Shown: positions 5,091 to 49,813 of the stretch, in pieces
How the letters are laid out: the number at the start of each line of letters is the position of its first letter
Position numbering within the stretch: the first letter of the stretch is position 1
NCBI RefSeq assembly: GCF_014268885.2
Contig: NZ_CP077095.1
Location: 4,557,001 to 4,621,000 of the forward strand
Reading direction: 5' to 3'
Origin: Pseudomonas xantholysinigenes
Lineage (GTDB): Bacteria; Pseudomonadota; Gammaproteobacteria; Pseudomonadales; Pseudomonadaceae
DNA: 64,000 nucleotides
Program-made: the position numbers and the translations under genes
Notes under the pieces: generated by a model
Seen by the model: the letters and a program-made list of their open reading frames with translations, nothing else
Database searches by the model: none
Told to the model about the DNA's origin: nothing

Positions 5091-5118
5091 GGATTCACCC
5101 TCACCCGTAAGCTTTCGC

Positions 5119-5544
5119 TTAGCGAGTGGTTACCTCGGTAGCAGCGAAGAAGTAAGCGATTTCGCGAGCAGCGGCGGCTTCGGAGTCCGAACCGTGAACG
5201 GCGTTGGCGTCGATCGACTCGGCGAAGTCAGCACGGATGGTGCCTGGAGCAGCTTCTTTAGGGTTGGTGGCGCCCATCAGCTCACGGTTCAGAGCGATGG
5301 CGTTTTCGCCTTCCAGAACCTGAACGACAACCGGACCGGAAGTCATGAAGGCAACCAGGTCACCGAAGAAACCACGAGCGCTGTGCTCGGCGTAGAAGCC
5401 TTCGGCTTCGGCTTTGGACAGTTGCTTGATTTTCGAGGCAACGATTTTCAGGCCGGCTTCTTCGAAGCGAGTGGTGATCTTGCCGATGACGTTTTTGGCG
5501 ACGGCGTCAGGCTTGATGATCGAGAAAGTACGTTGAACAGCCAT
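5119..5544 (-). CDS. ndk: Nucleoside diphosphate kinase
   Basis: Transfers the gamma phosphate of ATP to nucleoside diphosphates through a phosphohistidine. The 141-residue protein is full length. It starts [17 protein letters not shown], and the active-site histidine lies in NAVHGSDS near residue 117. A GGAG ribosome-binding site precedes the ATG. A hairpin terminator separates it from iscX upstream, so it is probably transcribed from its own promoter rather than as part of the isc operon. Confidence 0.98.
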
Positions 5545-29768: not shown

Positions 29769-30186
29769 GCCGGGACTCCTGTCCGGTGGTGGGGAGGATG
29801 ACAGTTTAGCGTCAGTGGGTACCCGGACGCACGCGTGCGAGATAGGCCGAAAGGAATGGTGGATAAAGACAGTTATCTACTCATACCCCCGATAGCGCCT
29901 GCCTCGGTGGCTCCAGGAAAATCTGTAACCCAAGCATCGGAAACATTGAGTAGCCCCCCCCCCGCGAAGCAGATTTCATTACTTGGAGTACATGAGCATT
30001 CCGAGCCCTGCTTCAACGCAGTATGGGCGGGTGCAGATACATTTCGTACAGAGCCTAGCACTTCTGCCAGGTGTCAGACATAAGGGACTCTGTTACATGT
30101 ATTGATGCGTGGGTACAGTACAGACTACCCACACCGGTGTGACGTATTCAATCATTGAATTGCATTAACCTATGAGGGGAACTGCC
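29769..30186. other. Gap at accessory-region boundary with C9 tract and palindromes
   Basis: 418 bases without a convincing gene. It holds a run of nine C's (29955-29963), the 10-bp palindrome ACACCGGTGT (30131-30140) and the 15-base palindrome ATTCAATCATTGAAT (30146-30160) just upstream of the next gene. A plus-strand reading frame begins MVDKDSYLLIPPIAPASV at about 29856 behind an AAAGGA, runs through the C-tract and ends at 30083; it could be a decayed start of a gene like the one downstream. Base composition changes to AT-richer here. Confidence 0.5.
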
Positions 30187-32554: not shown

Positions 32555-35500
32555 TCAGAACCCCATGCTGAAGCTCACCACTACCCCATGGTCGCGGTTC
32601 TCATTGGACAGCTGCCCAGAGTAGCCAACCCCAAGCTTGCCGCTCGCGCCCACCGACAGGTCGACCCCGGCCTCGACCACCGCCGCGTCCTTGGCAATCG
32701 GCACGCCCTCGGTGCTGAACCCGGCGCCACCGTCGATGAAGCGCAGGTCGGCATCGGGCTTGTCATCACCGAAGGCATGGCGCCAGCCCAGCGACACGCG
32801 CGGGGTGATCTGGCTGCCGTTGTCGAGGGTGATGCGCTTGCCGGCGCGCACGCCAAGGGTGGAGAAGGTCACATCCTGCTTGACCTTGCCCTGCAGGCGC
32901 CCTGCCCCACCCTTCTCATGGGCGGTGTCGCTGTCGTAGTTGACATAGGCCAACCCAGCGAATGGCTCCAGGGCGATACCGCCGGCGTCGATGGCATAGC
33001 CCACCTCGCCGAACACCTGGGCGCTGCGCGCCTTGTACTTGGCTTTCAGGCGGTCGCTGTAGCTGCCCACTTCGACATCGCGCTTGCTGTCGATGTCATG
33101 CCAGCTGTAGGCCACGCCCAGGCGAGCGGCGAAGGCATCCAGCTGGTAACCGAGGTAGGTGGTCAGGTGGTAGCTGTCCACCGTGGCGTCGGAACGGCGA
33201 CGGTGCGCGTCGATGCTCGAGCGGGTGTAGCCAGCGGCGGCGCCGACTTTCCACTGGTCATCCAGGGCGCGGTCGGCGCCGAGCATGAAGCCGGACAGGT
33301 CGCGGTCGACACTGGCATGGCTGCTGCTGCCGTCGTAGGTACCCCAGCCGCCGATGGCGCGGATCCAGCCCACCGCCTGGCCTTGGCAGCCTTCGCTGGT
33401 GAGTTGCTGGTTGGCGGTCGGCGCCAGGGTCCGACGTGGGTCGTCCTGATTGCTGCAGTCAGCCTGGCGCAGACGGTCGTTGACCGCGTCGCGGACATAG
33501 CGCGAATCCTCGATCAGCACGGTCGCGGTACTGGCGTGGATCTCGCCGGACAAGCTGTCGAACGCGGCCTGGGCGCCCTGACGGTCAAGCGGCAGCAGGT
33601 TGTTGACCAGCGTCGTCGGTGCCCCGGCACTGCTCAGGGCATTGGCCACGCCGCGCTGGTTGCCGGTGGCGGCGACATCGGCGAACGAATTGCCGTTGCG
33701 GCTGACCGACAGGGTCACCTGGTTGGCGCCGTAGCCCAGCGAACTGTTGAGGAACGCCGAGTTGGCCAGGTTGGTGGTGGCGAAGGTGCCGTTCACCCCG
33801 CCTGCGGCATTGACCACGGTGTACTGGCCGTTGCCACTGGCGAGGTTGGCCACTTGCAGGCTGCCGCCCAGGTTGGCGGTACCGCCGACGTTCAGGTAGT
33901 TCACCGGCGAGGCGCCGAGGTCGACCACCAGGGTCCCGCTGGAACCATTGGTGAAGTTGCCCGACACGTTCAGGTTGCCGGCAGGCCCCGGCAGCACGGT
34001 ACCGTTGTTGGTCAAGCTGGCGACGGTGCCGTTGCCGGTCAACGCGGCGCCATTGGCGACCGTTACCTGGGCACCGAGGTTACTGCCGGGGTGGGCCGCA
34101 TCGCCGACCTGGAGCACGCCCTGGTTGACGTTGAAGGCGCCGCTGAACGGCTGGTTGCCGGTCAGCAACAGGCTGCCGCCACCTTGCTTGGTGGTGGTGC
34201 CGGTGCCGCTGAGGGTGCCGTTGAAGGTGCCGTTGCTGCCTTGGGCGAAGACCAGGCTGGCGTTGTTGGCGATGTTGCCCTGCAGGCTGGTGGTGTTGCC
34301 GACCAGAGTACCGCCGCTGACGGTGGTGCCACCGCTGTAGGTATTGGCACCGGCGAGCACCAGGGTACCGGCATCGAGTTTCTCGATACCACCGTTGCCC
34401 ACCAGCGGCGCGCTGACCGTGGCGCTGGCGCCGGCATTGACCCGCACCGACGCCAGGCTGCCATCGGTGGCGTTGACCGGGGTCAGGCTGCCATCGGCAG
34501 CGGCGACCAGCTGGTAACCGTTGCTGAGGAACTGCAGCCCTTCGAAGGCCTGGTTGCCGGCCACCGTGACGGTGCCTGGCGCGCCGCCAAACACGGCGTA
34601 CTCGCCGCTCCAACCTTCGGCCGTGGTGCCGGTGGCGTTGGTCCAGTTGCTGCCCGGGCCCCAAGTGCCGCTGCCGCCGGCGATGGTGCCGTCCGGGGTG
34701 GTCTTGCTGCCGTTCCAGAACTGCAAGGTCTCACCGTAGTTCTGCACCACCAGGTTGATCTGGTTGGCGATGGCGGTCTGCAGGCTGAGGTCGCCCAGCA
34801 CCACGCTGCCTGGAATGGCGCCGAACACCAAGCCGTTGTCGGTCAGCGTGCCGCCGTAGTTGAACAGCTGGTAAACCCCGGTGCCGAAGCCGCCGGCATC
34901 GGTGATGTTCAGCGTGCCGTCGAGCACCAGGTTGCCGTTGACCTTGACCACGGTGGTAGAGGCCGCCGGAGCACCGAGGGTGAAGTCCAGGGCGCTGCCC
35001 GAGGCCAGGTCGAGGCTGCCGACGGTGAGTGGCGTGGCGCTCTGCCCGGCGGCCAGGGTAGCGCCATTGGCGATCTGCACCGCGCCGCCGTAGGTGCCGC
35101 TGCCGCCCAGGCGGGCACCGGTGGCGACCTGCACGCTGGCGCTGTCGAGGCGGCCGTTGACCAGCAGGCTGCCGGCGTTGACGCTGGTGGCGCCGGTCAG
35201 GCTGTTGACGCCGGTCAGCAGCAACTCGCCAGTGCCGTTCTTGGCCAGGGTACCGCTGCCGGACAGGTTGCCTGCGTAGGTGCCGTTGCTGTTCTGCTCG
35301 AAGCTCAGCGCTGCGTTGTTGACGATCGCTCCCTGCAGGCTGCCGGTGTTGCCCACCACGCTGCCGGCGTTGATCTGGGTGCCGCCGCTGTAGCTGTTGG
35401 TACCGCCGAGGGTCAGCAGGCCGGCACCGTTCTTGACTAGGCCACCGGCGCCGCTGATGGCGCCGTTGAGGGTCAGGGCGTTGCTGCCGGCGATGGCCAG

Positions 35501-38500
35501 GGCGCCGTTGAGCACGGCGTTGTTGGCCAGGGTCACCGCGGTGTTGCTGTCCAGGGTGGTGCCGGCGGCGGCGGTCAGGGTGCCGCTGCCCAGGGCGCTG
35601 TTGTTGCCGACCACCAGGGTGCCGCCGTTGAGGGCGGTGCCACCGCTGTAGCCGTTGGCGGCGTTGAGCACCAGGGTGCCGGCATCCTGCTTGGCCACGC
35701 TGCCGGTGCCGTTGAGAGCAACGTTGAGGGTGGCGGTGACGTTGGGGTCGACCCGCAGGTTGGTGGTGCCATTGCCGAGCAGTTCACCCGCGGCGCCAGC
35801 GTTGAGCACATAGCCATCGGTGACGAACTGCAGGCCGGTGATGGTATGGCTGCCGTCCACGGTGACGGTGCCAGCGGCGCCCTGGAACACCGCGAAGGTG
35901 TCGTTCCAGGTGCTGTTGAGCACACCGTTGGCGTCGGTCCAGTTGGTGTTGGTGGCATTCCAGGTGCCGCTGCCGCCGTCGATCAGGCCGTTGGCGACGC
36001 TTTGGCTGCCATCCCAGAACAGCACGTTGCTGGCCCCGCCGACCACCAGGTTGACCTGGTTGGCAATGGCGGTCTGCACGGTCAGGTCGCTGGCCGGCAC
36101 CGGCGTGGTGCCGATGGTCATGCCATTGTTGACCAGGCTGCCGCCGTAGCTGATCAGGTTGTACACCCCGGCGCCGAAGCCGCCGATGTCGGTGACATTG
36201 AGGGTGCCGCCGAGGGTCAGGTTGTTGGCCACGTTCACCAGCGGGCCACCACCACTGCCCGGCGCGCCGAGCGAGGCGTTGAAGTTGGCGCCGTTGTCCA
36301 GCGTCAGGTTGCCGGCGCTGAGGGTGCTGCCAGAGATGACATTGAGGTTGCCGCCGCTGGCCACCGCTACCGTGCCGCCCAGGCTGCCGGCGCCGGCCAG
36401 GTTGGCGCCGCTGGCGACGTTGACCGTGTTGCTGGCCAGGCTGCCATCGACCTGCAGGCTGCCGGCCTGCACGTTGGTGATGCCGCTGTGGCTGTTGCTG
36501 GCGCTGAGCGCCAGCACGCCGCTGCCGAGCTTGTTGAGGGTGCCGCTGCCACCGATGTTGCCGGCAAAGTTGCCGCCTTCGACGTTGAGGCTGTTGCCGG
36601 CGGCGATGTCGATCGCGCCGTTGCCGCCGATGTCGCCGAGGGTGGTGTTGCCGTCGAGGTTGAGGGTGGCGCCGCTGCTCACGTTCAGCTCGCTCTGGCT
36701 ACCCAGGGCGGTGGTGCCGATGGTGCTGAGGCTGCCGGACAGCAGGTTGAGGATACCGCTGAAGGTGTTGTTGCCCGACAGCGTCAGGTCGGCCAGGCCG
36801 CTCTTGTTCAGGGTGCCGCCGCCGCTGAGCACGCCGGCCAGGTGCAGGTCGTTGCTGCCCAGCACATTGAGCACGCCACTGACGTTCACCGGATTGGCCA
36901 GGGTAACCACGCCGCTGGTGTCGAGGTTGGCATTGCCGGTGACATCCAGGCCACCACTGCCAAGGGCAGCGTTGTTGCCGAGCATCAGCGTGCCGGCCTG
37001 CAGCTCGGTGCCACCGCTGTAGGTGTTGACGCCGTTGAGGGTCAGGCTGGCAGCGCCGGCCTTGATCAAGCGACCGGCACCGGCCAGGACGCCGTTGAGG
37101 GTCAGCGGGTTGCTGCCCAGCACGTTGAAGGCGCCGGCCAGGTTGACGTTGTTGGCCAGGGTCACGGCCTGGCTGCTGTCGAGGCTGGTCCCGGCAGCTG
37201 CGTTGAGCACGCCGGTGCCGAGCGCGGTGTTGGAACCCAGCACCAGGGTGCCGCCGTTGAGCGCGGTATTGCCGGCGAAGCTGTTGTTGCCGGACAGCGC
37301 CAGGCGCGCTGCGCCGGCCTTGACCAGGCCTCCGGCGCCACCGATGGCGCCACTCAGGGCCAGGTCATTGCTGCCGGCGATGTTCAGCGGGCCGGCCAGC
37401 GTGATGGCATTGCCCAGGGCGACAGCCTTGTTGGCGTCCAGCGTGGTGCCGGCAGCAGTGTCGAGCGCGCCGCTGCCCAGGGCGCTGTCGCTGCCCAGTA
37501 CGATCGTGCCGCCGCTCAGGGTGGTGCCACCGCTGTAGCTGTTGCTGCCGTTGAGCACCAAGGTGCCGCTGTCGAGCTTGTTGAGCTTGCCGCTGCCGGT
37601 CAGGCCGACATCGAGGGTGGCGGTCACACCGGGGTCGACTCGCACGCTGGTATCGCCGCCACTGCCATTGACCAGGTCGAGCACGCCGCCGGTGCCGGCC
37701 AGCAGGCGATAGCCGTCGCTGACGAACTGCATGCCGTTGAGGGTCTGGCTGCCGTCGACGGTGACATCGCCCGCGGTGCCCTGGAACACCGCGAAGGTGC
37801 TGCCCCAGGTGCCGTTGGTCACGCCGTTGAGGTCGGTCCAGTTGGTGTTGCCGGCATTCCACACGCCGCTGCCGCCATCGACCTGGCCGTTGGGCACGGT
37901 CTGGCTGCCATCCCAGAACTGGATGTTCAGGCCCGCGGCACTGACCAGCAGGTTGACCTGGTTGGCCAGGGCGGTCTGCAGGCTCACGTCGCCCAGGCCC
38001 ACGCCCAGCGGCAGGCTGCCGAAGTCCAGGCCGTTGTCGGTGAGCGTGCCGGCGTAGTCGAAGATCCGGTACACGCCGTTGCCGAAGCCGCCGATATTGC
38101 TGACGTTGAGGGTACCGTCGAGGGTCAGGTTGCCGCCGACGTTGAACACTGCGGTGGTGCCGGTGGACGGTGCGCCGAGGCCGACATCGACGATCGAGCC
38201 GCTGTTGAGCAGCAGGCTGCCGAGGCCCAGGGTGCTGCCGCTCTGCCCGGCCAGGTGGCCACCATTGTCGATGATCACCGAGGCGTTGGCATTGCCGCTG
38301 CCGGTCAGGGTGGCGCCGCTGGCCACTGTCAGCAGGTTGCTGCCCAGCGTGCCGTCGACCTTCAAGGTGCCAGCGTTGACCAGGGTGTTGTCGGCCAGGT
38401 TGCTGGTGCCGGTGAGGGTCAGGGTGCCGCTGCCGACCTTGGTCAGGCCGCCCAGGCCGTTGAGGCCACCGGCGAAGGTGCCGTCAAGGTTGTTGCTGCC

Positions 38501-41500
38501 CAGGCTCAGGGTACTGCCGATGCCGATATCGACCTGGCCGCTGCCGGTCAGGCTGCCGAGGCTGGCATTGCCGTTGAGGTTGAGCTGGCCGCTGGCGCCG
38601 ACGTTGAGGGTGTCGACGTTGGCCAGTACACCGCTGCCCAGGGTGGTCAGGGAGCCGGCCTGGATATCGACGTTGCCGGTGAAGGTCTTGACGCCAACCA
38701 GGGTCAGGTCGTCGACGCCGGTCTTGACCAGGTTGCCGGTACCGCCGAGGTCGCCGCTGAGGATCAGCGCGTTGGCGGCTTCGACGGTCAGGTTGGCGCC
38801 GTTGCTCAGGGCAATGGTGTTGCCCAGGGCCATCGGCGCGGAGTTGGCCAAGGTGGCATCGGCGGTGACCGACAGGGTGCCGGTGCCCAGCGCGCCGCTG
38901 TTGCCCACGGTCAGGCGCCCGGCGTTGAGCTGGGTGCCGCCCTGGTAGCCGTTGTTGCCGTTGAGGGTCAGGTTGCCACTGCCGTTCTTGGTCAGGCCGG
39001 CGGTGCCATTGAGCACGCCATTGAGGGTCAGGTCGTTGACGCCATCGACGCTGAGACCAGCGTTGAGGGTGACGTTGTTGGCCAGGGTGACATTGCTGCC
39101 TGCGCTCAAGGTCGAGGCCCCGGCGACGGTCAGGGCGCCCTGCCCCAGTGCGTTGTCGTTGCCGACCACGAGCTGGCCAGCGCCGAGGGTAGTGCCGCCG
39201 AGATAGTTGTTGGCGCCGTTGAGGGTCAGCGTGGCGGCACCCGATTTGTTCAGGCCGCCGACGCCGTCGAGCACGCCATTGAGGGTGAGGTTGGCGCTGC
39301 CCGGCACGTTGAGCGTACCGCCCAGGTGCACGGCGTTGCCCAGGGTGACGCCCGCGCCGCTGGCATCGAGGCTGGTGTTGGCGCCGGTGCTCAGAGCGCC
39401 GGTGCCCAGGGCGGTATTGCTGCCCACCACCAGGGTGCCGCCGTTGAGGCTGGTGCCGCCGCTGTAGGTGTTGTTGCCGTTGAGGGTCAGGCTGGCGGCG
39501 CCGTTCTTGACCAGGCCGTTGTTGCCGGACACCACGCCGTCGAGGGTCAGCGCCTGGCTGCCGTCGAGAGTCAGGTTGCCACCGGCAAGGTTGATGGCAT
39601 TGCTCAGCGCCAGCGCCAGGCTGGTATCGAGGCTGGCGGCGCCAGTGACGGTCAGCGCACCGCCGCCCAGGGCCCCGGCATTGCCCAGCAGCAAGCTGCC
39701 GGTCTGCAGCGAGGTACCGCCTGCGTAGGTGTTGTTGCCGTTGAGCACAAGTTGCCCGGTGCCCAGTTTGTTCAGCGCACCGGCGCCGCTGATCACACCG
39801 TCGAGGGTCAGTGCCTGGGTATTGTTCAGCGCCAGCGTGGCGTTCGTGCCAAGGCCGATGGCATTGGCCAACTGCAGTACGCCAAGGGTCGCCAAGGTGC
39901 TGTTACCGGTCACCGACAGGTTGCCGCTGCCCAGGGCGGTGTTGTTGCCCAGGGTCAGGGTGCCGGCGCCAAGGGCGGTGGTGCCCTGGTAGGTGTTGGC
40001 GGCGCCCAGGGTCAGGTTGCCGCTGCCGGTCTTGGTCAGGCCGCCGCTGCCGCTGATCACACCGTTGAGGGCCAGGTCGTTGTTGCCGGGCAGGCTCAGG
40101 GTGTCGTTCAGCGTCACCTGGTTGGCCAGGGTCAGGGGGCCGCTGGTGGCCAGGTTGCTGGCGCCGCCGACGGTCAGGGTACCGGTACCCAGCGCCTGGT
40201 TGTTGCCCAGGGTCAGGGTGCCGGCATTGAGAGTCACGCCGCCGGTCAGGGTGTTGGCACCGCTGAGCGTAAGATTGCTGGCACCGTTCTTGGTCAGGCT
40301 GCCGGCCCCGGTGACCAGCCCGCCCAGGCCCAGGTCGTTGCTGCCGGCGATGATGAGGTTGCCGCCCAGGTTGACGGTGTTGCCGATGCTCAGCGCGGTG
40401 TTGCTGTCCAGCGTGGTGCCGGCCGCCGCGTTGAGCTGGCCGAGACCGAGGGCGTTGGCGCTGCCGAGCACCAGGGTGCCGGCATTGAGGTTGGTGTTGC
40501 CCAGATTCCCATTGATGCCGTTCAGGGTCAGGGTGCCACTGCCGGTCTTGGTCAGGCCGCCGACACCGTTGACGTTGCCGCCCAGGGTCAGGTTCTGTGC
40601 CCCGGCGATGGTCAGGTTGCCGGCCAGGTTGAGCTGGTTGGCCAGGGTGACGTTGGCGTTGCTGCTCAGGGTGGTGCCACCTACGGCATTGAGCGCACCG
40701 CTGCCCAGCGCCGTGTTGCTGCCCACCACCAGGGTGCCGCCGTTGAGGCTGGTGGCGCCCTGCTGACTGTTGCTGCCGTTGAGGGTGAGCGTGCCGGTGC
40801 CGCCCTTGACCAGGCCAGCGGTGCCGCTGAGCGCGCCGTTGAGGGTAAGGTCATTGCTGCCCGGCAGGCTCAGGTTGGCGTTCAGGGCGATGGTGTTGCC
40901 CAGGGTCAGGTTGGCCGTGGTGTCCAGGCTGGCGGCGCCCGTCACGGCCAGGCCACCGCTGCCCAGGGCGGCGGCGTTGCCCAGGGTCAGGGTGCCGGCG
41001 CCCAGGGTGGTGCCGCCACTGTAGGTGTTGGCGTTGCCCAGGGTCAGGTTGGCGCCGCCGTTCTTGACCAGGCTGCCAGTGCCAGAGACCACGCCCGACA
41101 GGCCCAGGTCGGCGGAGCCAGCAACGCTCAGGGCCCCGGCCAAGGTGAAGGCGTTGCCGAGGGTGACCGCGGTGTTGCTGTCCAGCGTGGTGCCGTTGGC
41201 AGTGCTGACCGCGCCGCTGCCGAAGGCGGTGTTGTTGCCGACCACCACCGTGCCGCCGTTGAACAGGGTGCCACCGGTGTAGCTGTTGGCGCCATTGAGC
41301 ACCAGGGTGCCGCTGTCGAGCTTGGCCAGCTGGCCGCTGCCCGAGAGGCCGACGTTGAGGGTCGCGGTGACGCCCGGGTCGACCCGCACGGCGAAGGCGC
41401 CGTTGCTGCCGTTGACCAGGTTCAGGCCGCCGCTGCCGATCAGGCGATAGCCGTTGCTGACGAACTGCAGGCCGGTGGCGGCCTGGGTGCCGACCACGGT

Positions 41501-44500
41501 GACATCGCCCGCTGTGCCCTGGAACACCGCGAAGTCGCTGGCCCAGCTGCCGTTGAGCACGCCGTTGACGTCCGTCCAGTTGGTGTTGGTCGAGTCCCAG
41601 GTGCCGGTGCCGCCGTCGATCACGCCGTTGGGCACGCTCTGCGCGCCGTCCCAGAACTGCACGGTGCCGGTGGCGCCACCGACCAGCAGGTTGATCTGAC
41701 TGCCGATGGAGGTCTGCACCTGCAGGTCGCCAGGCAGCATGGTACCTGGCACGTTGCCGACCAGCACGCCGTTGTCGACCAGCGCGCCGGTGTAGTCGAA
41801 CAACCGGTAGATACCGGTGCCGAAGCCGCCGATATCGGTGACGTTGAGGGTGCCGTCGAGGGTCAGGTTGCCGTTGACGTTGACCAGCGCGGTGCCGCCG
41901 GTGGCAGGCGAGCCCAGGCCGAAATCGAGGATCGAGCCGCTGTGCAGGGTCAGTGCCCCGGTGTTGAGGGTCGCGCCACTGTTGGCCAGCAAATGCGCGC
42001 CGTTGGCGATATCGACCGCGCCGAGCAGGCTGCCGGTGCCGCCCAGGCTGGCGCCACTGTTGACCTGCACGCCGGCACTGGCCAGGGTGCCGGTGACGTT
42101 GAGCAGGCCGCCATTGACCGTGGTGTTGCCCGCGAGCACGTTGACCCCGGACAGCTCGAGGCTGCCACTGCCTTGCTTGATCAGGCCGCCGCTGCCGGCC
42201 AGCACGCCGCTGAACACACCGTTGAGGTTGTTGCTGCCGACGCTCAGGTTGCTGCCGCCGGCCACGTTCACCGTGCCGGCGCCGGTCAGGCCGCCGATGC
42301 TGGCACTGGCGCCAAGATTGAGGCTGGCGCCGGCGCCGACATTGACCCCGGAGGTATTGCCCAGGGCCGTGCCACTAACGGTGGTCAGGCTGCCGCCGAT
42401 CAGGTCGACAGCGCCGGTGAAGCTGTTGTTGCCGCTGAGTGTCAGGTCGGCCAGGCCATTCTTGATCAAGCCGCCGTTGCCGCTGATCACACCAGCGAGG
42501 GTCAGGTTGTTGCTGCCGCCGAGGGTCAGGTCGGCGCCCAGGTTGACGTTGTTGCCCAGGCTCAGCGCGGTGCTGTTGTCCAGGCTGCCGGGGCCGGCCA
42601 CGTTCAAGGTGCCGGTGCCCAGCGCGGCGCCGTTGCCGACCACCAGCCCACCGGCATTGAGGGTGGTGCCGCCGCTGTAGGTGTTGACACCGTTGAGGGT
42701 CAGGGTGGTGCCGCCGTTCTTGATCAGCTGGCCCGTGCCGCTGACCACGCCACCGAGGGTCATGGCATTGCTGCCGGCCAGGGTGAGGTCGGCGTTCAAG
42801 GCGATGTTGTTGCCCAGGTTGACGGCGGCGCTGCTGTCCAGGCTCGCGGCACCACCGACGGTCAGGGCACCGCTGCCGATGGCACTGGCGTTGCCCAGCA
42901 CCAGGCCACCGGCATTGAGCACGGTGCCGCCAGAATAGGTGTTCAGGCCGCTGAGGGTGACCGTGGCGCTGCCATTCTTGATCAGCCGGCCAGTGCCGTC
43001 GATCAGGCCGCCAAGGGTCAGGTCGTTGCTGCCGCCCAGGGTCAGGTCGGCGCCCAGGGTGATGGCATTGCCGACGCTCAGCGCGGCACTGGTGTCGAGG
43101 CTGCCGGCCCCGGCCACGGTGAGCTTGCCGGTACCCAGCGCGGCACCGTTGCCCAGCACCAGGCCGCCAGCGTTGAGGATGGTGCCGCCCACATAGACGT
43201 TGGGGCCGGACAGGGTCAGGGTCGCGTTGCCGTTCTTGATCAGGCTGCCGATGCCACTGACCAGCCCGCCGAGCCCAAGATCAGCGGTACCGCCGATGGT
43301 CAGCGCGCCGGCGAGGTTGACCGCGTTGCCCAGGTTGACCGCCGTGCTGGCATCGAGGCTGGTGCCGGCGGCGGCGTTCAGGGCGCCGCTGCCCAGTGCG
43401 GTGTTGCTGCCGACGACGATGCCGCCAGCATTGAGCGCGGTGTTGCCCAGGTAAGTGTTGGCACCGCTCAGGGTCAGGGTGGTGTTGCCGTTCTTGACCA
43501 GGCCGCCGACACCGGCGATGACGCCGCCGAGGGTCAGGTTGTTGCTGCCAGGCAGGCTCAGGTTGCCGCTCAGGTTGATCGCATTGCCGATGTTCAGGCC
43601 CGTGACACTGGTGTCCAGCGACGTGTTGGCGCTGGCATTGAGCGCGCCGGTGCCCAGCGCAGTGTTGCTGCCCAGCACCAGCGTACCGGCGTTGAGCGTG
43701 GTGTCGCCGCTCTGGGTGTTGTTGCCACTGAGGGTCAGGCTACCGGCGCCGTTCTTGATCAGGCCACCGGCACCGCTGACCGTGCCGGCCAGGTTGAGGT
43801 TGTTGGCACCGGCCAGCGTCAGGTTGTCGCCGAGGTTGACGGCGTTGTTCAAGGTCATCGCCGTGGCGTTGGACAAAGTCGACGCGCCACCGACATTCAA
43901 TGCACCGCTGCCCAGCGCGGCGGCGCTGGCCAGGGTCAAGGTACCGGCGTTGAGGTTGAGCCCGCCGCTGAAGGTGTTGGCCCCCGACAGGGTCAAGTTG
44001 CTGCTGCCATTCTTGGTCAATGCGCCGGCGCCGCTGATTACGCCGCTGAGGGTAGTGGTGTTGCTGCCTGGCAAGGTCAGGGTGGCGCCAGCGGCGAGGT
44101 TGATGGCGTTGCCCAGGTTGAGCGAGGCGCTGGCGTCGAGGCTGGCGTTGCCACCCACGCTCAGGGCGCCGCTGCCGATGGCGTTGTTGTTGCCCAGGGT
44201 CAGCAGGCCGGCATTGAGGGTGGTGCCGCCGCTGTAGGTGTTGTTGCCGTTGAGGGTCAGGCCGGCGTTGCCATTTTTGACCAGGGCGCCGCTGCCGCTG
44301 ATCAGGCCGCCAAGGGTGGTGGCGTTGCTGCCCAGCACGGTCAGGGTGTTGCCGCCCAGGTTGATGCCGTTGGTGACGGCGACCGCGGTGCTGGCATCGA
44401 GGTTGGCATTGCCACCCAGGGTCAGGGCGCCGAGGCCGAGCGCGGTGTTGCTGCCCAGGGTCAGGGTGCCGGCATTGAGCTGGGTGCCGTTGGTGTAGAG

Positions 44501-47500
44501 GTTGTTGCCACTCAGGGTCAGGTTGGCGTTGCCATTCTTGACCAGCGAGCCAATGCCGCTGACCACCCCGTTCAGGGCCAGGTCGGCGCTGCCGTCGAGG
44601 GTCAGTGGGCCGGCAATGGTCACATCGTTGGTCAGGCTGACGGCGGTGCTGGCGTCCAGGTGGGTGCCCGCCAGGGTATTTAGGGTGCCGGTGCCCAGCG
44701 CGGTGTTGCTGCCGACCACGATAGTGCCGGCGTTCAGACGGGTGATACCGCTGTTGCTGTTGTTGCCGGTGAGGGTCAGGGTGGTGGCGCCGTTCTTGGT
44801 GATGCCGCCGTTGCCGGCGATGGCGCCGCTGAGGGTCAGGTCGTTGCTGCCGGGCAGGATGAAGTTGCCGGCCAGGTTCAGGGCATTGGCAAGGTTCAGG
44901 CCGGCGGCGCTGGTGTCCAGGGTCGTGTTGTTGGCGGCGTTCAGCGCGCCGCTGCCCAGCGCGGTATTGCTGCCGACCACCAGGGTGCCGGCGTTGAGCG
45001 CGGTGGCGCCGCTGTGGGTGTTGTTGCCGGTCAGGGTCAGGGTGGCGCTGCCGTTCTTGACCAGGCCGCCGGTGCCGCTGAGCGTACCGGCCAGGGTCAG
45101 GTTGCTGGTAGTGGGCAGTGTCAGGTCAGCCGCGAGGTTGACCGCGTTGTTCAAGGTCATCGCCGCCGAGTTGGCCAGGGTCGCGGCACCGCCAACATTG
45201 AGCGCGCCGCTACCAAGGGCGGCGGCGCTGGCCAGGGTCAAGGTGCCGGCGTTGAGGTTCAGACCGCCGCTGAAGGTATTGGCGCCACTGAGGGTCAGGT
45301 TGGTGCTGCCATTCTTGGTCAGCGCGCCGGTACCGCTGATCACCCCGCTCAGGTTGGTGGTGTTGCTGCCTGCCAGGGTCAGGGTGTTGCCGGCCAGGTT
45401 GATGGCATTGCCCAGGTTGAGGGTGCCGCTAGAGTCAAGGCTGGCATTGCCGCCCAAGGTCAGGCCGCCGGTGCCCAGGGCGTTGCTGTTGCCCAGGGTC
45501 AGCAGGCCGGCATTGAGGGTGGTGCCGCCACTGAAAGTGTTGTTGCCGTTGAGGGTCAGGCCGGCGCTGCCGCTCTTGACCAGCGCACCGGTGCCACTGA
45601 TTTGCCCGGTCAGGGTGGTGGCGTTGCTACCCAGCACGGTCAGGGTGTTGCCGCCCAGGCTGATGGTGTTGGTTGCGGCGACGGCGGTGCTGGTGTCGAG
45701 GTTGGCGTTGCCACCCAGGGCCAGGCCGCCGATCCCCAGCGCGGTATTGCTGCCCAGTACCAGGGTGCCGGCGTTGAGCTGGGTGCCGTTGCTGAAGATG
45801 TTGTTGCCGCTCAAGGTCAGGCTGGCGTTGCCGTTCTTGACCAGCGAACCAAGGCCGCTGAGCTGGCCGCTCAGGCCCAGGTTGGCGGTGCCATCGATAG
45901 TCAGCGGCCCGGCGATGATCACATCGTTGGCCAGGCTGACCGCGGTGCTGGCATCCAGGTGGGTGCCGGCAGCCGTGTTGAGGATGCCCGTGCCCAGCGC
46001 GGTGTTGCTGCCGACTACCAGGGTGCCGCCGTTGAGGAAGGTCGAACCGCTGTTGCTGTTGGCACCGCTCAAGGTCAGCGTGGTGTTGCCACTCTTGGTG
46101 ATACCGCCGGTGCCGGCGATGGCACCACTCAAGGTCAGGTCGTTGCTGCCCGGCAGGTTGAGGTTGCCGCCCAGGTTCACGGCATTGGCGATGTTCAGGC
46201 CAGCGACGCTGGTGTCGAGGGTGGTGTTGGCGGCGGCGCTCAGCGCGCCGGTGCCCAGGGCGGTGTTGCTGCCCAGCACCAGTGTGCCGGCATTCAGCAG
46301 CGTGGCGCCGCTGTGGGTGTTGTTGCCGCCGAGCGTCAGGCTGGCGCTGCCGTTCTTGGTCAGGCCGCCGGTACCGCTGAGGTTGCCGGCCAGGTTGAGG
46401 TTGTTGGCCCCGCTCAGGGTCAGGGTAGCGCCCAGGTTGACGCCATTGGTCAGGGTCATCGCCACGCTGTTGGCCAGCGTCGCGGCGCCGCCCACGCTGA
46501 GCGCGCCCGTGCCCAGGGCCGCGGCACTGGCCAGGGTCAGGGTCCCGGCGTTGAGCGTCAGCCCACCGCTGAAGGTATTGCTGCCGCCCAGGGTGAGGTT
46601 GCTGCTGCCGTTCTTGATCAACGCACCGGTACCGCTGATCACACCGCCCAGGGTGGTGGCGCTGGTGCCCGGCAGGGTCAAGGTGTTGCCGCCCAGGTCG
46701 ATGGCGTTGCCCAGGTTCACCGCCACGCCGGCATCGAGGCTGGCATTGCCGCCCAGGCTCAGTGCGCCGGTGCCCAGGGCATTGTTGTTGCCCACGGTCA
46801 GCACGCCACCGTTGAGGGTGGTGCCGCCGCTGAAGGTGTTGCTGCCATTGAGGGTCAGCCCGGCGCTGCCGTTCTTGACCAGTGCCCCGGTGCCGCTGAT
46901 CACGCCACCGAGGGTGGTGGCGCTGGTGCCCAGCAGGTTGAGGGTGTTGGCCCCCAGGTTGATCGCATTGGCCAGGCTGACCGCGGTACTGGCATCGAGA
47001 CTGGCATTGGCGCCCAGGGTCAGCGCGCCGGTCCCCAGGGCATTGCTGTGGCCAACGCTGAGCGCGCCGCCGTTGAGGGTGGTGCCGCCACTGAAGGTGC
47101 TGTTGCCATTGAGGGTGAGCGCGCCGGCGCCGTTCTTGATCAGCGCGCCGGTGCCGCTGATCACGCCTCCCAGCGTGGTGGCATTGTTGCCCGGCAGGGT
47201 CAGGGTGTTGCCGGCCAGGTTGATGGCGTTGCCCAGGCTCAGCGCGGCGCTGGCATCGAGGGTGCTGTTGCCCCCCAGGGTCAGCGCGCCGGTGCCCAGC
47301 GCGGCGCTGTTGCCGAGGGTGAGCTTGCCGCCGGCCAGGCTGGTGCCACCGCTGTAGGTGTTGACGCCATTGAGGGTGAGGTCGGCGCTGCCGTTCTTGG
47401 CCAGTGCCCCGGTGCCGCTGATCACACCGTTCAAGATGGCGGCGTTGGTGCCCGCCAGCGTGAGGGTATTGGCGCCCAGGTTGACGGCGTTGCTCAAGGT

Positions 47501-49132
47501 CAATGCCGCAGTGCTGTCCAGGCTGCCGTTGCCGGTCAGGGTCAGGGCGCCCGCGCCGAGCGCGCTGTCATTGCCCAGGGTGAGCGTGCCGCCGGCCAGG
47601 GAGGTGCCGCCGGAGTAGGTGTTAATACCGTTGAGGGTCAGGTTGCCGCTGCCGCTCTTGACCAGCGATCCGGTACCGCTGATCAGGCCACCAAGGGCCA
47701 GGGCATTGCTGCCGGGCAGGGTCAAGGCCGCATTCAGGGTGATGCCGTTGTTCAGCACCAATGGCCCGCTGCCTTGCAGGCTACCGGCGCCGCTGACGGT
47801 CAAGCCGCCACTGCCGAGCGCCGCCGCGCTGGTCAGGTTGAGGCCACCGGCCGTCAGGTTGGTGCCGCCGCTGTAGGTGTTGCTGCCGCCGAGGGTGAGC
47901 AGCCCGGTACCGGTCTTGGTCAGGCCACCGACACCCGAGACCACGCCGTTGAGGGCCATGTCGGTGGCCCCACCAACGCTCAGCCCGGCGTTGAGGATCA
48001 AGGCATTGGCCAGGCTCACCCCACCGACGGTTCCCGCCAGCCCGCCGCCGTTGACAGTGATGGCACCGGCGCCGAAGGCATTGGAGTTGTCGAAGTTGAC
48101 CTGGCCACCGTTGAGGGTGGTCAGGGTGGTGCCGTTGAGCACCTGGCCAATCAGCGACCAAGTACCGCTGTCGACGATCAGGCGATTGAAGTTGATGTAG
48201 TTGTTGGCGTTGATCGTGCCGCTGCCACTGGTACCGCTACCGCCGCCGATGGTGTTCTGCAGGGCCAGGGTGTTGGTGCCACCGGCACCGCCGTCGATCT
48301 TGCCCGCCGCCGCATAGGCGAGGTTGGGGTTGCTGGTGACCAGCAGGGCCACGCCGATACCGAGCCCGGCACTGACGCTGGAACCGGTAATGGCGTTGAA
48401 ACGGTTGCTGCTGTTGGCCCCCATCGACAGGCTGCCGGTGATGCTGCCGGCGTTAGTGAAGGTGTTGCCCGCCGTGGACGCCTCGAAGGCTGCCCGACCA
48501 AGGATGGTGCCGGTGTTGGTGAAGTCCACCTTGCTGCCGCCGGTGACGGCGATCACCGGGGTATCCTCGCTGACCAGGGTCAGGCTGGCCAGCGCCGAAG
48601 AGCCGATGCTGCCGGCGTTGCTGATGGTGGTAGTGCCGCTGCTGCCATTGCGGGCGTCCAGCGCCATGCCGGTCAGGTTCAGCAGGTTGGCGCCGAGCAA
48701 GGCGCCGGTACCCTTGATCACGCCCGTGGCATTGTTGTTGATGGTGAGCGTGCTGCCGGTACCGGTATTGCCGATCAGCACGGCGGAAGACTGGATGCTC
48801 AACAGCCCGAGCAAGGTCGGGTCGATGGTGCCGGAGTTGTTCAGGGTGTTGTTGTTGCCAGCCAGCGACAGCGAGGTGCCGCCCACGCCCAGCAAGGTGC
48901 CTAGGGAAGCGCCCGGGTTGACGTTCACGGTCAGGCCGCTGCCGCCATTGGTATAGCTCGGCGCCAAGGGGTTGGCCGCGCCGTTGCAGGTGATTATCGA
49001 CCCGGCCGCGCTGCACACGGCAAGCGCCTGCTCACTGGTCAGACCTAGGGCCATGCCCCCCACCGCCAGACTGACGGCCAGGGACAATTGGGAGAAACGG
49101 GCAGGCAAGCGTGCGGCGACAATTCTGTCCAC
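32555..49132 (-). CDS. Giant type V autotransporter adhesin with PATR-like repeats
   Basis: One uninterrupted frame of 5525 codons. The GTG start at 49132 has AAGGAG six bases upstream. A Sec signal peptide (residues 1-38, cleaved after QALA) is followed by a short loop with C40 and C49. A glycine/asparagine-rich N-terminal beta-helix region precedes about 36 copies of an ~86-residue repeat of the form GGTLxLGxNxALGxGxLxx...VISGTGxLxKNGxxxLTLxGxNTYSGGT, resembling passenger-associated transport repeats. Four copies of another module (FWDG ... NWTD ... FAVFQGTAGxVTV) interrupt the array. The last ~270 residues are an autotransporter beta-barrel (VGWIRAIGGWGTYDG to a terminal Phe in FSMGF). The only other cysteines I noticed lie just before the barrel (QADC, EGC). 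Likely surface adhesin for biofilm or host contact; ligand unknown. No separate transporter gene is needed or present. Confidence 0.92.
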   Translation of the reverse strand: MDRIVAARLPARFSQLSLAVSLAVGGMALGLTSEQALAVCSAAGSIITCNGAANPLAPSYTNGGSGLTVNVNPGASLGTLLGVGGTSLSLAGNNNTLNNSGTIDPTLLGLLSIQSSAVLIGNTGTGSTLTINNNATGVIKGTGALLGANLLNLTGMALDARNGSSGTTTISNAGSIGSSALASLTLVSEDTPVIAVTGGSKVDFTNTGTILGRAAFEASTAGNTFTNAGSITGSLSMGANSSNRFNAITGSSVSAGLGIGVALLVTSNPNLAYAAAGKIDGGAGGTNTLALQNTIGGGSGTSGSGTINANNYINFNRLIVDSGTWSLIGQVLNGTTLTTLNGGQVNFDNSNAFGAGAITVNGGGLAGTVGGVSLANALILNAGLSVGGATDMALNGVVSGVGGLTKTGTGLLTLGGSNTYSGGTNLTAGGLNLTSAAALGSGGLTVSGAGSLQGSGPLVLNNGITLNAALTLPGSNALALGGLISGTGSLVKSGSGNLTLNGINTYSGGTSLAGGTLTLGNDSALGAGALTLTGNGSLDSTAALTLSNAVNLGANTLTLAGTNAAILNGVISGTGALAKNGSADLTLNGVNTYSGGTSLAGGKLTLGNSAALGTGALTLGGNSTLDASAALSLGNAINLAGNTLTLPGNNATTLGGVISGTGALIKNGAGALTLNGNSTFSGGTTLNGGALSVGHSNALGTGALTLGANASLDASTAVSLANAINLGANTLNLLGTSATTLGGVISGTGALVKNGSAGLTLNGSNTFSGGTTLNGGVLTVGNNNALGTGALSLGGNASLDAGVAVNLGNAIDLGGNTLTLPGTSATTLGGVISGTGALIKNGSSNLTLGGSNTFSGGLTLNAGTLTLASAAALGTGALSVGGAATLANSVAMTLTNGVNLGATLTLSGANNLNLAGNLSGTGGLTKNGSASLTLGGNNTHSGATLLNAGTLVLGSNTALGTGALSAAANTTLDTSVAGLNIANAVNLGGNLNLPGSNDLTLSGAIAGTGGITKSGNTTLTLSGANSNSGSTFLNGGTLVVGSNTALGTGILNTAAGTHLDASTAVSLANDVIIAGPLTIDGTANLGLSGQLSGLGSLVKNGNASLTLSGNNIFSNGTQLNAGTLVLGSNTALGIGGLALGGNANLDTSTAVAATNTISLGGNTLTVLGSNATTLTGQISGTGALVKSGSAGLTLNGNNTFSGGTTLNAGLLTLGNSNALGTGGLTLGGNASLDSSGTLNLGNAINLAGNTLTLAGSNTTNLSGVISGTGALTKNGSTNLTLSGANTFSGGLNLNAGTLTLASAAALGSGALNVGGAATLANSAAMTLNNAVNLAADLTLPTTSNLTLAGTLSGTGGLVKNGSATLTLTGNNTHSGATALNAGTLVVGSNTALGSGALNAANNTTLDTSAAGLNLANALNLAGNFILPGSNDLTLSGAIAGNGGITKNGATTLTLTGNNSNSGITRLNAGTIVVGSNTALGTGTLNTLAGTHLDASTAVSLTNDVTIAGPLTLDGSADLALNGVVSGIGSLVKNGNANLTLSGNNLYTNGTQLNAGTLTLGSNTALGLGALTLGGNANLDASTAVAVTNGINLGGNTLTVLGSNATTLGGLISGSGALVKNGNAGLTLNGNNTYSGGTTLNAGLLTLGNNNAIGSGALSVGGNASLDASASLNLGNAINLAAGATLTLPGSNTTTLSGVISGAGALTKNGSSNLTLSGANTFSGGLNLNAGTLTLASAAALGSGALNVGGASTLSNATAMTLNNAVNLGDNLTLAGANNLNLAGTVSGAGGLIKNGAGSLTLSGNNTQSGDTTLNAGTLVLGSNTALGTGALNASANTSLDTSVTGLNIGNAINLSGNLSLPGSNNLTLGGVIAGVGGLVKNGNTTLTLSGANTYLGNTALNAGGIVVGSNTALGSGALNAAAGTSLDASTAVNLGNAVNLAGALTIGGTADLGLGGLVSGIGSLIKNGNATLTLSGPNVYVGGTILNAGGLVLGNGAALGTGKLTVAGAGSLDTSAALSVGNAITLGADLTLGGSNDLTLGGLIDGTGRLIKNGSATVTLSGLNTYSGGTVLNAGGLVLGNASAIGSGALTVGGAASLDSSAAVNLGNNIALNADLTLAGSNAMTLGGVVSGTGQLIKNGGTTLTLNGVNTYSGGTTLNAGGLVVGNGAALGTGTLNVAGPGSLDNSTALSLGNNVNLGADLTLGGSNNLTLAGVISGNGGLIKNGLADLTLSGNNSFTGAVDLIGGSLTTVSGTALGNTSGVNVGAGASLNLGASASIGGLTGAGTVNVAGGSNLSVGSNNLNGVFSGVLAGSGGLIKQGSGSLELSGVNVLAGNTTVNGGLLNVTGTLASAGVQVNSGASLGGTGSLLGAVDIANGAHLLANSGATLNTGALTLHSGSILDFGLGSPATGGTALVNVNGNLTLDGTLNVTDIGGFGTGIYRLFDYTGALVDNGVLVGNVPGTMLPGDLQVQTSIGSQINLLVGGATGTVQFWDGAQSVPNGVIDGGTGTWDSTNTNWTDVNGVLNGSWASDFAVFQGTAGDVTVVGTQAATGLQFVSNGYRLIGSGGLNLVNGSNGAFAVRVDPGVTATLNVGLSGSGQLAKLDSGTLVLNGANSYTGGTLFNGGTVVVGNNTAFGSGAVSTANGTTLDSNTAVTLGNAFTLAGALSVAGSADLGLSGVVSGTGSLVKNGGANLTLGNANTYSGGTTLGAGTLTLGNAAALGSGGLAVTGAASLDTTANLTLGNTIALNANLSLPGSNDLTLNGALSGTAGLVKGGTGTLTLNGSNSQQGATSLNGGTLVVGSNTALGSGALNAVGGTTLSSNANVTLANQLNLAGNLTIAGAQNLTLGGNVNGVGGLTKTGSGTLTLNGINGNLGNTNLNAGTLVLGSANALGLGQLNAAAGTTLDSNTALSIGNTVNLGGNLIIAGSNDLGLGGLVTGAGSLTKNGASNLTLSGANTLTGGVTLNAGTLTLGNNQALGTGTLTVGGASNLATSGPLTLANQVTLNDTLSLPGNNDLALNGVISGSGGLTKTGSGNLTLGAANTYQGTTALGAGTLTLGNNTALGSGNLSVTGNSTLATLGVLQLANAIGLGTNATLALNNTQALTLDGVISGAGALNKLGTGQLVLNGNNTYAGGTSLQTGSLLLGNAGALGGGALTVTGAASLDTSLALALSNAINLAGGNLTLDGSQALTLDGVVSGNNGLVKNGAASLTLNGNNTYSGGTSLNGGTLVVGSNTALGTGALSTGANTSLDASGAGVTLGNAVHLGGTLNVPGSANLTLNGVLDGVGGLNKSGAATLTLNGANNYLGGTTLGAGQLVVGNDNALGQGALTVAGASTLSAGSNVTLANNVTLNAGLSVDGVNDLTLNGVLNGTAGLTKNGSGNLTLNGNNGYQGGTQLNAGRLTVGNSGALGTGTLSVTADATLANSAPMALGNTIALSNGANLTVEAANALILSGDLGGTGNLVKTGVDDLTLVGVKTFTGNVDIQAGSLTTLGSGVLANVDTLNVGASGQLNLNGNASLGSLTGSGQVDIGIGSTLSLGSNNLDGTFAGGLNGLGGLTKVGSGTLTLTGTSNLADNTLVNAGTLKVDGTLGSNLLTVASGATLTGSGNANASVIIDNGGHLAGQSGSTLGLGSLLLNSGSIVDVGLGAPSTGTTAVFNVGGNLTLDGTLNVSNIGGFGNGVYRIFDYAGTLTDNGLDFGSLPLGVGLGDVSLQTALANQVNLLVSAAGLNIQFWDGSQTVPNGQVDGGSGVWNAGNTNWTDLNGVTNGTWGSTFAVFQGTAGDVTVDGSQTLNGMQFVSDGYRLLAGTGGVLDLVNGSGGDTSVRVDPGVTATLDVGLTGSGKLNKLDSGTLVLNGSNSYSGGTTLSGGTIVLGSDSALGSGALDTAAGTTLDANKAVALGNAITLAGPLNIAGSNDLALSGAIGGAGGLVKAGAARLALSGNNSFAGNTALNGGTLVLGSNTALGTGVLNAAAGTSLDSSQAVTLANNVNLAGAFNVLGSNPLTLNGVLAGAGRLIKAGAASLTLNGVNTYSGGTELQAGTLMLGNNAALGSGGLDVTGNANLDTSGVVTLANPVNVSGVLNVLGSNDLHLAGVLSGGGTLNKSGLADLTLSGNNTFSGILNLLSGSLSTIGTTALGSQSELNVSSGATLNLDGNTTLGDIGGNGAIDIAAGNSLNVEGGNFAGNIGGSGTLNKLGSGVLALSASNSHSGITNVQAGSLQVDGSLASNTVNVASGANLAGAGSLGGTVAVASGGNLNVISGSTLSAGNLTLDNGANFNASLGAPGSGGGPLVNVANNLTLGGTLNVTDIGGFGAGVYNLISYGGSLVNNGMTIGTTPVPASDLTVQTAIANQVNLVVGGASNVLFWDGSQSVANGLIDGGSGTWNATNTNWTDANGVLNSTWNDTFAVFQGAAGTVTVDGSHTITGLQFVTDGYVLNAGAAGELLGNGTTNLRVDPNVTATLNVALNGTGSVAKQDAGTLVLNAANGYSGGTALNGGTLVVGNNSALGSGTLTAAAGTTLDSNTAVTLANNAVLNGALAIAGSNALTLNGAISGAGGLVKNGAGLLTLGGTNSYSGGTQINAGSVVGNTGSLQGAIVNNAALSFEQNSNGTYAGNLSGSGTLAKNGTGELLLTGVNSLTGATSVNAGSLLVNGRLDSASVQVATGARLGGSGTYGGAVQIANGATLAAGQSATPLTVGSLDLASGSALDFTLGAPAASTTVVKVNGNLVLDGTLNITDAGGFGTGVYQLFNYGGTLTDNGLVFGAIPGSVVLGDLSLQTAIANQINLVVQNYGETLQFWNGSKTTPDGTIAGGSGTWGPGSNWTNATGTTAEGWSGEYAVFGGAPGTVTVAGNQAFEGLQFLSNGYQLVAAADGSLTPVNATDGSLASVRVNAGASATVSAPLVGNGGIEKLDAGTLVLAGANTYSGGTTVSGGTLVGNTTSLQGNIANNASLVFAQGSNGTFNGTLSGTGTTTKQGGGSLLLTGNQPFSGAFNVNQGVLQVGDAAHPGSNLGAQVTVANGAALTGNGTVASLTNNGTVLPGPAGNLNVSGNFTNGSSGTLVVDLGASPVNYLNVGGTANLGGSLQVANLASGNGQYTVVNAAGGVNGTFATTNLANSAFLNSSLGYGANQVTLSVSRNGNSFADVAATGNQRGVANALSSAGAPTTLVNNLLPLDRQGAQAAFDSLSGEIHASTATVLIEDSRYVRDAVNDRLRQADCSNQDDPRRTLAPTANQQLTSEGCQGQAVGWIRAIGGWGTYDGSSSHASVDRDLSGFMLGADRALDDQWKVGAAAGYTRSSIDAHRRRSDATVDSYHLTTYLGYQLDAFAARLGVAYSWHDIDSKRDVEVGSYSDRLKAKYKARSAQVFGEVGYAIDAGGIALEPFAGLAYVNYDSDTAHEKGGAGRLQGKVKQDVTFSTLGVRAGKRITLDNGSQITPRVSLGWRHAFGDDKPDADLRFIDGGAGFSTEGVPIAKDAAVVEAGVDLSVGASGKLGVGYSGQLSNENRDHGVVVSFSMGF
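32558..33375 (-). other. Autotransporter beta-barrel domain of the giant adhesin
   Basis: C-terminal ~270 residues: alternating amphipathic strands such as GFMLGADRALDDQWKVGAAA, YHLTTYLGYQLDAFAARLG and VFGEVGYAIDAGGIALEPFA, ending with an aromatic residue as outer-membrane barrels do. It is preceded by a helical stretch (IEDSRYVRDAVNDRLRQADC) that would thread the barrel pore. Confidence 0.88.
35400..47900 (-). repeat. In-frame 255-264 bp tandem repeat array of the adhesin passenger
   Basis: The same motif recurs every 255-264 bases. On the plus strand each unit is recognisable by a CCGCTGTAGGTGTTG-like block followed by GTTGAGGGTCAG. I count about 36 units, interrupted by three copies of the FWDG/NWTD module near 41.4-42.4, 37.6-38.7 and 35.7-36.8 kb; a fourth follows at about 34.4-35.2 kb. 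The array should recombine readily and be hard to assemble from short reads. Confidence 0.85.
43170..46540 (-). repeat. Higher-order ~1.3-kb repeat inside the adhesin array
   Basis: Five successive units recur as a block: a TLTLASAAALG unit, TLVLGSNTALG, TLVVGSNTALG or TIVVGSNTALG, TLVLGSNTALG or TLTLGSNTALG, and a LLTLGN unit. Equivalent points lie at 46540, 45241 and 43939, i.e. 1299 and 1302 bases apart (five times ~86.7 codons). A third, partial copy covers its first three units. Confidence 0.75.
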
Positions 49133-49429
49133 GGAGAGCTCCTTCGTGGATCAGGCGATTCGGTCCCTGAATGCGTGAACAGCGCTTGTTGCAGTGAATC
49201 TGAGCACGCGAACGGCGAAACACCTGACCATGGCTACAAATTTTCCTTTGCAGAAATGTGTAGCCGCTCGCAGCCGCGTGGCAGGGCGTTGGCGCCGGTC
49301 AAATGGTGTTAATACTTTGTCGAGGCGGCACGTGTTTCGCGGGTTTCAGCCCGGCACAGGTTGGATCCAACCGACGAACGGTCATGGCGAATGGCCAGAA
49401 CCTGACAAGTTGCCGAGGGCTGAAGCCCC
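49133..49429. promoter_or_regulatory. Upstream region of the adhesin gene
   Basis: About 300 bases between the adhesin start and the end of the next minus-strand gene. It is visibly AT-richer near 49233-49255 and contains the perfect 14-bp palindrome GGTTGGATCCAACC (49359-49372), a candidate operator. I could not pick a promoter with confidence. Confidence 0.4.
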
Positions 49430-49813
49430 TCAGGCAACCTCAGCGCCCTCCTCTGGCCAATGTGGCTCGTTGGCCCCAGGCGGGGTCAATGGCGGCAAGC
49501 CATAGGCGGCCCGGGCATCGTCACAGCTGGGGTTGTGCACGCCGTTTTCCCACGAGGCCTCGAACTCGCGGCAGGGGCTGGAGCGATTCTCGTAGATGGA
49601 GCACGCCACTTGCGTGCCGATCTCGCCGCCGAGGCTCACGCAACGGCAAGGCTTGGCGTCGGTGCCGATCATCGCGACCCGGGTCGGGTTGATCTGTACC
49701 ACCAGATCGTCGGGCACCACGCCGCCGGCGGACTGGCATTCACCCCAGAAGAAAGACACACGAAAGTAGCCGCAGCAGGCGCCGCAGGTCAGGCAAGGAT
49801 TCTGTTCGGACAT
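49430..49813 (-). CDS. YkgJ-family cysteine cluster protein
   Basis: 127 residues with the zinc/iron-chelating cysteine pattern of this family: CLTCGACCGYF at the N-terminus, CRCVSLGGEIGTQVACSIYENRSSPCREF in the middle and a further cysteine in PSCDDARAAYG. Function unknown; the family is proposed to bind metal. The C-terminus (PLTPPGANEPHWPEEGAEVA) is low complexity. Monocistronic between the adhesin upstream region and alaC. A second family member lies at 62469. Confidence 0.85.
   Translation of the reverse strand: MSEQNPCLTCGACCGYFRVSFFWGECQSAGGVVPDDLVVQINPTRVAMIGTDAKPCRCVSLGGEIGTQVACSIYENRSSPCREFEASWENGVHNPSCDDARAAYGLPPLTPPGANEPHWPEEGAEVA

Follow-up and report, generated by a model that had tools for sequence, protein, structure and literature searches.

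What does an uninterrupted reading frame of 16.6 kb in a Pseudomonas chromosome encode, and which parts of its product have changed among related species? The window, by which we mean the whole stretch of 64,000 nucleotides that was analysed (positions 4,557,001 to 4,621,000 of contig NZ_CP077095.1 from Pseudomonas xantholysinigenes), contains one such frame. A preliminary description had read it as a single-gene autotransporter with a patterned passenger, very large for its class, carried in an accessory block and possibly the main surface adhesin of the strain. Our preferred reading, to which we give a probability of roughly 0.78, is that the product is a type Va autotransporter of the PATR kind whose passenger would form a long β-helix rod with a tip cap, and whose job is most likely adhesion or biofilm building; we infer its surface exposure, filament length, folding order and adhesion. 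The gene and the features upstream of it are as follows.

32555..49132, minus strand: autotransporter gene, a single open frame of 5525 aa with a GTG start
49297..49319, minus strand: conserved upstream block CAAAGTATTAACACCATTTGACC, kept in most of 17 aligned upstream regions and weakest in G339 and G405
49430..49813, minus strand: gene upstream of the autotransporter gene on the same strand, which we take to be ykgJ-like

The autotransporter gene is real and intact. The source genome is one closed contig of 5.6 Mb, 100% complete, in which the frame runs unbroken as had been described. A GGAG Shine-Dalgarno sequence lies six bases before the GTG start, and both recur in all 17 aligned loci, the window included. 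Consensus scans for promoters and terminators near both ends of the gene gave no match. A gene this long and repetitive could be an assembly artefact or a decaying pseudogene, and some relatives do look broken or cut (G190 and G009, as well as G186 with an internal stop). That explanation is extremely improbable here: the contig is closed, and assembly collapse is unlikely because the repeats of the first array have diverged in DNA, with mean identities of 66 to 76% at lags of 1 to 10 units and 86% for the best pair (units 2 to 22 are 41 to 84% alike at the protein level). Moreover, the gene aligns with that of G366 over 5524 codons with 8 gap columns and is otherwise of equal length. The dN/dS ratio between the two is 0.29 overall (5523 codons) and below 1 in every segment (0.12 to 0.53, with 0.12 in the barrel). 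Within the span of the gene there is also an antisense open frame of 2945 codons (35846-44683, plus strand), and in G366 the antisense frame is open for 5598 codons from stop to stop. These long frames fit the near-absence of TTA, CTA and TCA from the autotransporter codons (0, 4 and 0, respectively, among 5526).

Along the protein, the parts are arranged in the following order.

49019..49132, minus strand: signal-peptide-like N-terminus, aa 1-38, read by eye as a hydrophobic stretch followed by EQALA
48176..49018, minus strand: N-terminal cap (passenger tip), aa 39-319, with Cys40 and Cys49
42179..48175, minus strand: array 1, aa 320-2318, 23 units of 86-88 aa (the last of 95 aa) with a five-unit superperiod of ~434 aa
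41324..42178, minus strand: module 1, aa 2319-2603, with four Trp
38441..41323, minus strand: array 2, aa 2604-3564
37580..38440, minus strand: module 2, aa 3565-3851
36533..37579, minus strand: array 3, aa 3852-4200
35693..36532, minus strand: module 3, aa 4201-4480
35243..35692, minus strand: array 4, aa 4481-4630
34382..35242, minus strand: module 4, aa 4631-4917
33758..34381, minus strand: membrane-proximal β-helix, aa 4918-5125
32618..33367, minus strand: β-barrel translocator PF03797, aa 5256-5505

This plan bears out most of the preliminary description. PATR (PF12951) matches 45 stretches of the passenger with an E value of 3e-191, and PF03797 matches the C-terminal barrel at full length with an E value of 1.2e-66; the protein ends in an aromatic residue (...FSMGF). 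The earlier count of about 36 repeats of about 86 residues was a fair one, given 45 K-anchors along the protein with 35 spacings of 84 to 88 aa and 41 units counted by a repeat HMM. The four inserted modules of about 285 aa were each recovered as a full match, and a further partial match lies at aa 4982-5147. Only four cysteines occur in the 5525 residues, and they do sit near the two ends (positions 40, 49, 5226 and 5249), in columns that do not vary among the 27 N-terminal and 29 C-terminal rows aligned. The array-1 units are unusual in composition: after the first unit, each has one Lys at a fixed place (two units have a second Lys), none contains Glu, there are two Arg in total, and Asp numbers 0 to 4 per unit. 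Tryptophan is distributed differently, with 16 of the 17 Trp before aa 5126 located in the modules.

Structure models covered the cap with the first units (aa 38-578) and the last 1045 aa. The first of these is a β-helix with a mean pLDDT of 89.9, in which each 86-aa unit has some nine to twelve short strands; four rungs per unit would be expected from this. The nearest solved structures to it are UpaB, then HMW1, a GH110 enzyme, IcsA and other β-helices. In the second model, the β-helix is confident, module 4 is weak around model residues 270-335, and the barrel has a low pLDDT; helices at model residues 670-741, candidates for an α-helical linker in the pore, are partly under a pLDDT of 50. 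The model of the C-terminal part matches Ssp, pertactin, AaaA, EstA, NalP and EspP, with Ssp on the β-helix side. Despite the low pLDDT, the barrel region aligns with AaaA, EstA, NalP, AIDA-I and EspP, so that the lack of a barrel, named beforehand as a refuting outcome, is not what structure prediction shows. When sequences are compared, the barrel has a single solved match at E <= 0.01, EstA. A β-helical passenger is thus seen in the modelled parts at aa 38-578 and 4481-5125, and the PATR, PF03797 and structural matches together support the earlier reading of one gene that encodes a type Va autotransporter, complete with patterned passenger and barrel.

The class of the protein is type Va, PATR kind (PF12951/TIGR02601), and it is probably a YapH-like adhesin. 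It is a new, intact member of an already known kind of autotransporter. The closest likeness is to two Xanthomonas relatives, P0064 and P0065, which are listed under names other than YapH: the N-terminal caps are 49% identical, and both have 86-aa repeats and modules. They differ in being 3676 and 3400 aa long, in having two modules, and in carrying the extended signal region ESPR (PF13018), which is stated for Xanthomonas arboricola YapH in PMC12448352. In the window protein PF13018 is absent, since a Pfam scan of aa 1-600 returns PATR alone at E <= 0.01. One Pseudomonas relative, P0023, itself carries the source name YapH. The Salmonella protein ShdA is a more distant comparison; its NCBIfam model NF011847 (2050 positions) aligns with parts of the passenger, at scores well short of the model's cut-off of 2249 bits. 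PMC9704523 describes ShdA as varying in PATR repeat number, from 4 to 6, whereas the array plan of the window protein is not known there. UpaB of Escherichia coli is 13% identical, with a solved passenger of 433 residues. Periscope proteins have near-identical tandem repeats, whereas the array units here are only 41 to 84% alike as protein, with a best pair of 86% as DNA. LapA-type RTX adhesins are set apart by the LapA retention module, which is not found in the window gene and has two matches elsewhere in the genome.

Protease-type autotransporters share parts with the window protein as well, the barrel and linker in the case of EprS and the membrane-proximal β-helix in the case of Ssp. It could therefore be asked whether this is a grown EprS-like protease. 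The barrel and linker do score 372 bits with the EprS model NF051851, and the module starts match a portion of the EprS passenger. This score is far under the EprS cut-off of 1700, and it involves the C-terminal part only. EprS and Ssp, moreover, carry a serine protease domain, whereas Pfam scans jointly spanning the whole window protein give PATR and the barrel only and no peptidase domain. The protease reading is therefore very improbable and already largely refuted.

The preliminary description called the protein very large, and against the 1000 to 2000 aa usual for the class this stands, but the size is normal within its family. Among 1030 candidates scored, in a search confined to proteins no shorter than about 3000 aa, at least 49 proteins of 3052 to 5793 aa have a related barrel, those from Pseudomonas by name ranging from 3095 to 5793 aa. 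One relative has a frame of 5889 aa, and BigE, the largest autotransporter in PMC3419190, has 10,429 aa. The length of 5525 aa is therefore not a record, being about half that of BigE. BigE is, by its description in the same source, likewise a type Va giant that has grown through the replication of repeats, with 69-aa repeats and an eight-fold segment of ~300 aa of its own. Relatives of the N-terminal cap occur in Pandoraea, Xanthomonas and Achromobacter, and the family is common in Pseudomonas, where the cap is present in 92 of 398 genomes (one genome per species, our own included). We found no study of this Pseudomonas family among the open-licence papers searched.

On our preferred reading, the chain would be exported by Sec, the C-terminal barrel would insert in the outer membrane, and the passenger would be threaded out and would fold from the membrane-proximal PATR part into one long β-helix. 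The rise of a β-helix is 0.48 nm per rung. At about 21.5 aa per rung, the passenger would have about 235 rungs and a length of roughly 110 nm. The conserved N-terminal cap would end at the far tip, on a stiff stalk made of the repeat arrays, which the four Trp-bearing modules would decorate at fixed points. By analogy with Xanthomonas YapH, adhesion or biofilm building would be its most likely function. In Xanthomonas fuscans, YapH has a role in initial adhesion and biofilm structure according to PMC3826837 (see also PMC12448352); PMC3826837 also cites a YapH mutant as more aggressive, so the role is not simply pro-virulence. An autotransporter of Pseudomonas entomophila has a passenger similar to a Yersinia hemolysin and, according to a review, no known function (PMC6023292). 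Adhesion by the window protein is thus likely by analogy. The earlier suggestion that it is the main surface adhesin of the strain is not supported, for two LapA-type proteins (with open frames of 5224 and 3155 aa) are encoded in the same genome and could carry the adhesive role or be as important.

A passenger secreted in the same way might instead be chiefly a shield, a spacer or an anti-adhesive layer that binds nothing specifically. The array-1 units, which lack Glu, have two Arg between them and mostly contain a single Lys and 0 to 4 Asp each, would suit such a role, and a long rod-like stalk can, through its length, block other adhesins, as PMC9704523 relates for SasG. However, the invariant residues of the cap and the three Trp retained in every module suggest specific surfaces, and we regard the shield or spacer as unlikely. 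Three Trp are kept in all 286 full modules, which were found with a model built from the window's own four modules, and a fourth is kept in 225. In the rows that supplied these modules, they hold 1087 of 1213 passenger Trp, counted from residue 31 to 300 before the end. Only the first ~30 to 109 residues of a module match PATR, TIGR02601 or EprS (by Pfam on modules 1 and 4, and by NCBIfam on all four), and a PDB profile search with the modules matched Ssp over residues 1-88 only. The Trp-bearing part matches no named family in the Pfam and NCBIfam libraries searched; a DUF7110 match to module 4 (E 0.28) was under its cut-off and was rejected. No ligand-binding fold was recognised in the cap or module beyond the β-helix. 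Being invariant and without a named family in those libraries, the Trp-bearing part is a defined target for binding studies.

What is new here, besides the invariant module Trp, is a nearly fixed architecture in which the length of array 1 often shifts by five units. From the 92 genomes with a cap match, 88 stretches were fetched, the short or contig-cut matches mostly not among them, and 87 rows entered the unit census, the window included. L032 (G009, with an apparently broken frame) and L035 (G029, with two copies) were left out, and G150b, with a span of 5.3, was set to 5 units by hand. In L035 and in G223, a short second paralogue adjoins the giant gene (open frames of 1794 and 1779 aa). 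In 51 of the 87 rows, about 12, 5 and 2.7 units lie around three modules. A further 15 rows, from what we call the P. putida-type clade because NCBI places P. mosselii in its P. putida group, have x, 11, 4 and 1.7 to 1.8 units and four modules, where x is 13, 14, 18 or 23. Elsewhere than in this clade, array 1 has 12 or 7, or 11 or 6, units.

Unit-by-unit alignment showed a single contiguous five-unit difference at units 18 to 22 between G125 and G000 and between G123 and G366. Contiguous five-unit differences were also found for G391 against G025, G283 against G394 and G380, G120 against G217, G211 against G032, and G246 against G150, and contiguous ten-unit differences for G147 and G391 against G366. 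Other sizes occur too: G339 and G150, G147 and G024, and G217 and G032 differ by one unit, and G024 and G279 differ by nine, G024 having a single-unit copy that is 99% identical. One-unit differences also occur in arrays 2 to 4. For G382 against G032 and G147 against G123, the alignment gave no single contiguous five-unit gap, and in the 7-unit rows the place of the gap shifts with the alignment partner.

Trees were built from 36, 77 and 102 rows. The two larger ones leave out nine or ten rows, among them G190, whose C-termini are broken, odd or short, and the 102-row tree took in 24 of the at least 49 large barrel proteins as held-out rows. On the 102-row barrel tree we inferred 19 steps: five units six times, one unit four times, six and nine units twice each, and two, three, seven, eight and ten units once each. 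These counts are one reconstruction among others that may be as short, on a tree without bootstrap whose rooting and deep steps are uncertain. One of the six five-unit steps lies wholly among held-out rows (P0013, P0011, P0016 and P0022). As a strict rule the five-unit step was rejected, being broken by the held-out P0015 (about 3 units) and P0026 (about 4) and by 6 and 7, and 11 and 12, differing by one. Five-unit steps are thus the commonest (6 of 19) with clear exceptions, in a pattern found post hoc that is suggestive.

Two explanations of this pattern were weighed. We somewhat favor the one in which five-unit steps are a habit of recombination only, a five-unit tandem duplication being followed by growth and shrinkage through exchange between copies. 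Indeed, the mean identity in G000 is 69% between units at lag 5, compared with 53 to 60% at lags 1 to 4 and 6 to 9, and therefore part of array 1 grew by five-unit duplications. The lag-5 excess is also present in G366, G123, G125 and G025 (in G025, lag-5 pairs reach 93% in DNA) and is weak in G150, G339 and G352; in G032 (68%) and G380 (70%), no other DNA pair exceeds a single lag-5 pair. However, a mean lag-5 excess is missing from the longer member of each 12/7 or 11/6 contrast, and within units 18 to 22, which the G123 group lacks, units 20 to 22 are not close copies of the units five before them. The other explanation, which is unlikely, is a structural quantum of length: five 86-aa repeats (20 rungs, about 10 nm) would make one turn or half-turn of the rod, and selection would tolerate whole five-unit changes of array 1 (13, 18, 23; 7, 12; 6, 11; 14, 19) more readily than most others because the five-unit changes would keep the orientation of the tip, with the modules as fixed binding stations. 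If the five-repeat step were structural, it would give a rule for the length evolution of rod-like adhesins and a ready set of natural length variants. What merits follow-up is how array 1 changes length block by block, together with the module and its invariant Trp, and not size as such.

Of the 18 relatives that share the window gene's side of the barrel tree, all but L072 and L073 have the ykgJ-like gene upstream, and each of these 16 has the alaC gene beyond it; names such as P. synxantha are the basis for calling the other side P. fluorescens-type. Downstream, the order of a gene that we take to be GNAT-like, a 179-aa gene, a LysR gene and a selU-like gene is found in 10 of 11 close named relatives (L037-L047, which include P. 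mosselii, P. soli, P. peradeniyensis, P. entomophila, P. sichuanensis and P. parasichuanensis), and a selU-like gene is close by in 3 of 7 further loci (L030-L036). The names alaC and selU are those of the preliminary description; the first gene matches Pfam Aminotran_1_2, and the second has a rhodanese match that is sub-threshold only. In G015, the ykgJ and LysR genes are 1.2 kb apart and the autotransporter gene is absent. The earlier view of an accessory gene between conserved neighbors therefore holds, given the empty slot in G015 and a cap in only 92 of 398 genomes; yet the gene is long settled in its slot within the P. putida-type clade.

The pocket between the autotransporter and GNAT-like genes varies from about 0.2 to 4.7 kb. 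In the window it contains a 332-aa open reading frame (30172-31170, plus strand) of about 50% G+C, which has no Pfam match at E <= 0.01 and only weak partial matches elsewhere. It also contains a C4 antisense RNA (RF01695; 31546-31632, minus strand), which was found in the same pocket in 6 of 7 relatives searched, L037 being the exception. Our own genome has at least 12 matches to this RNA, with 150 of 2059 candidates scored, and 14 control genomes have none. Of the 11 C4 antisense RNA stretches viewed, several have low-GC genes no more than about 2 kb away, and this RNA is a possible marker of cargo hotspots.
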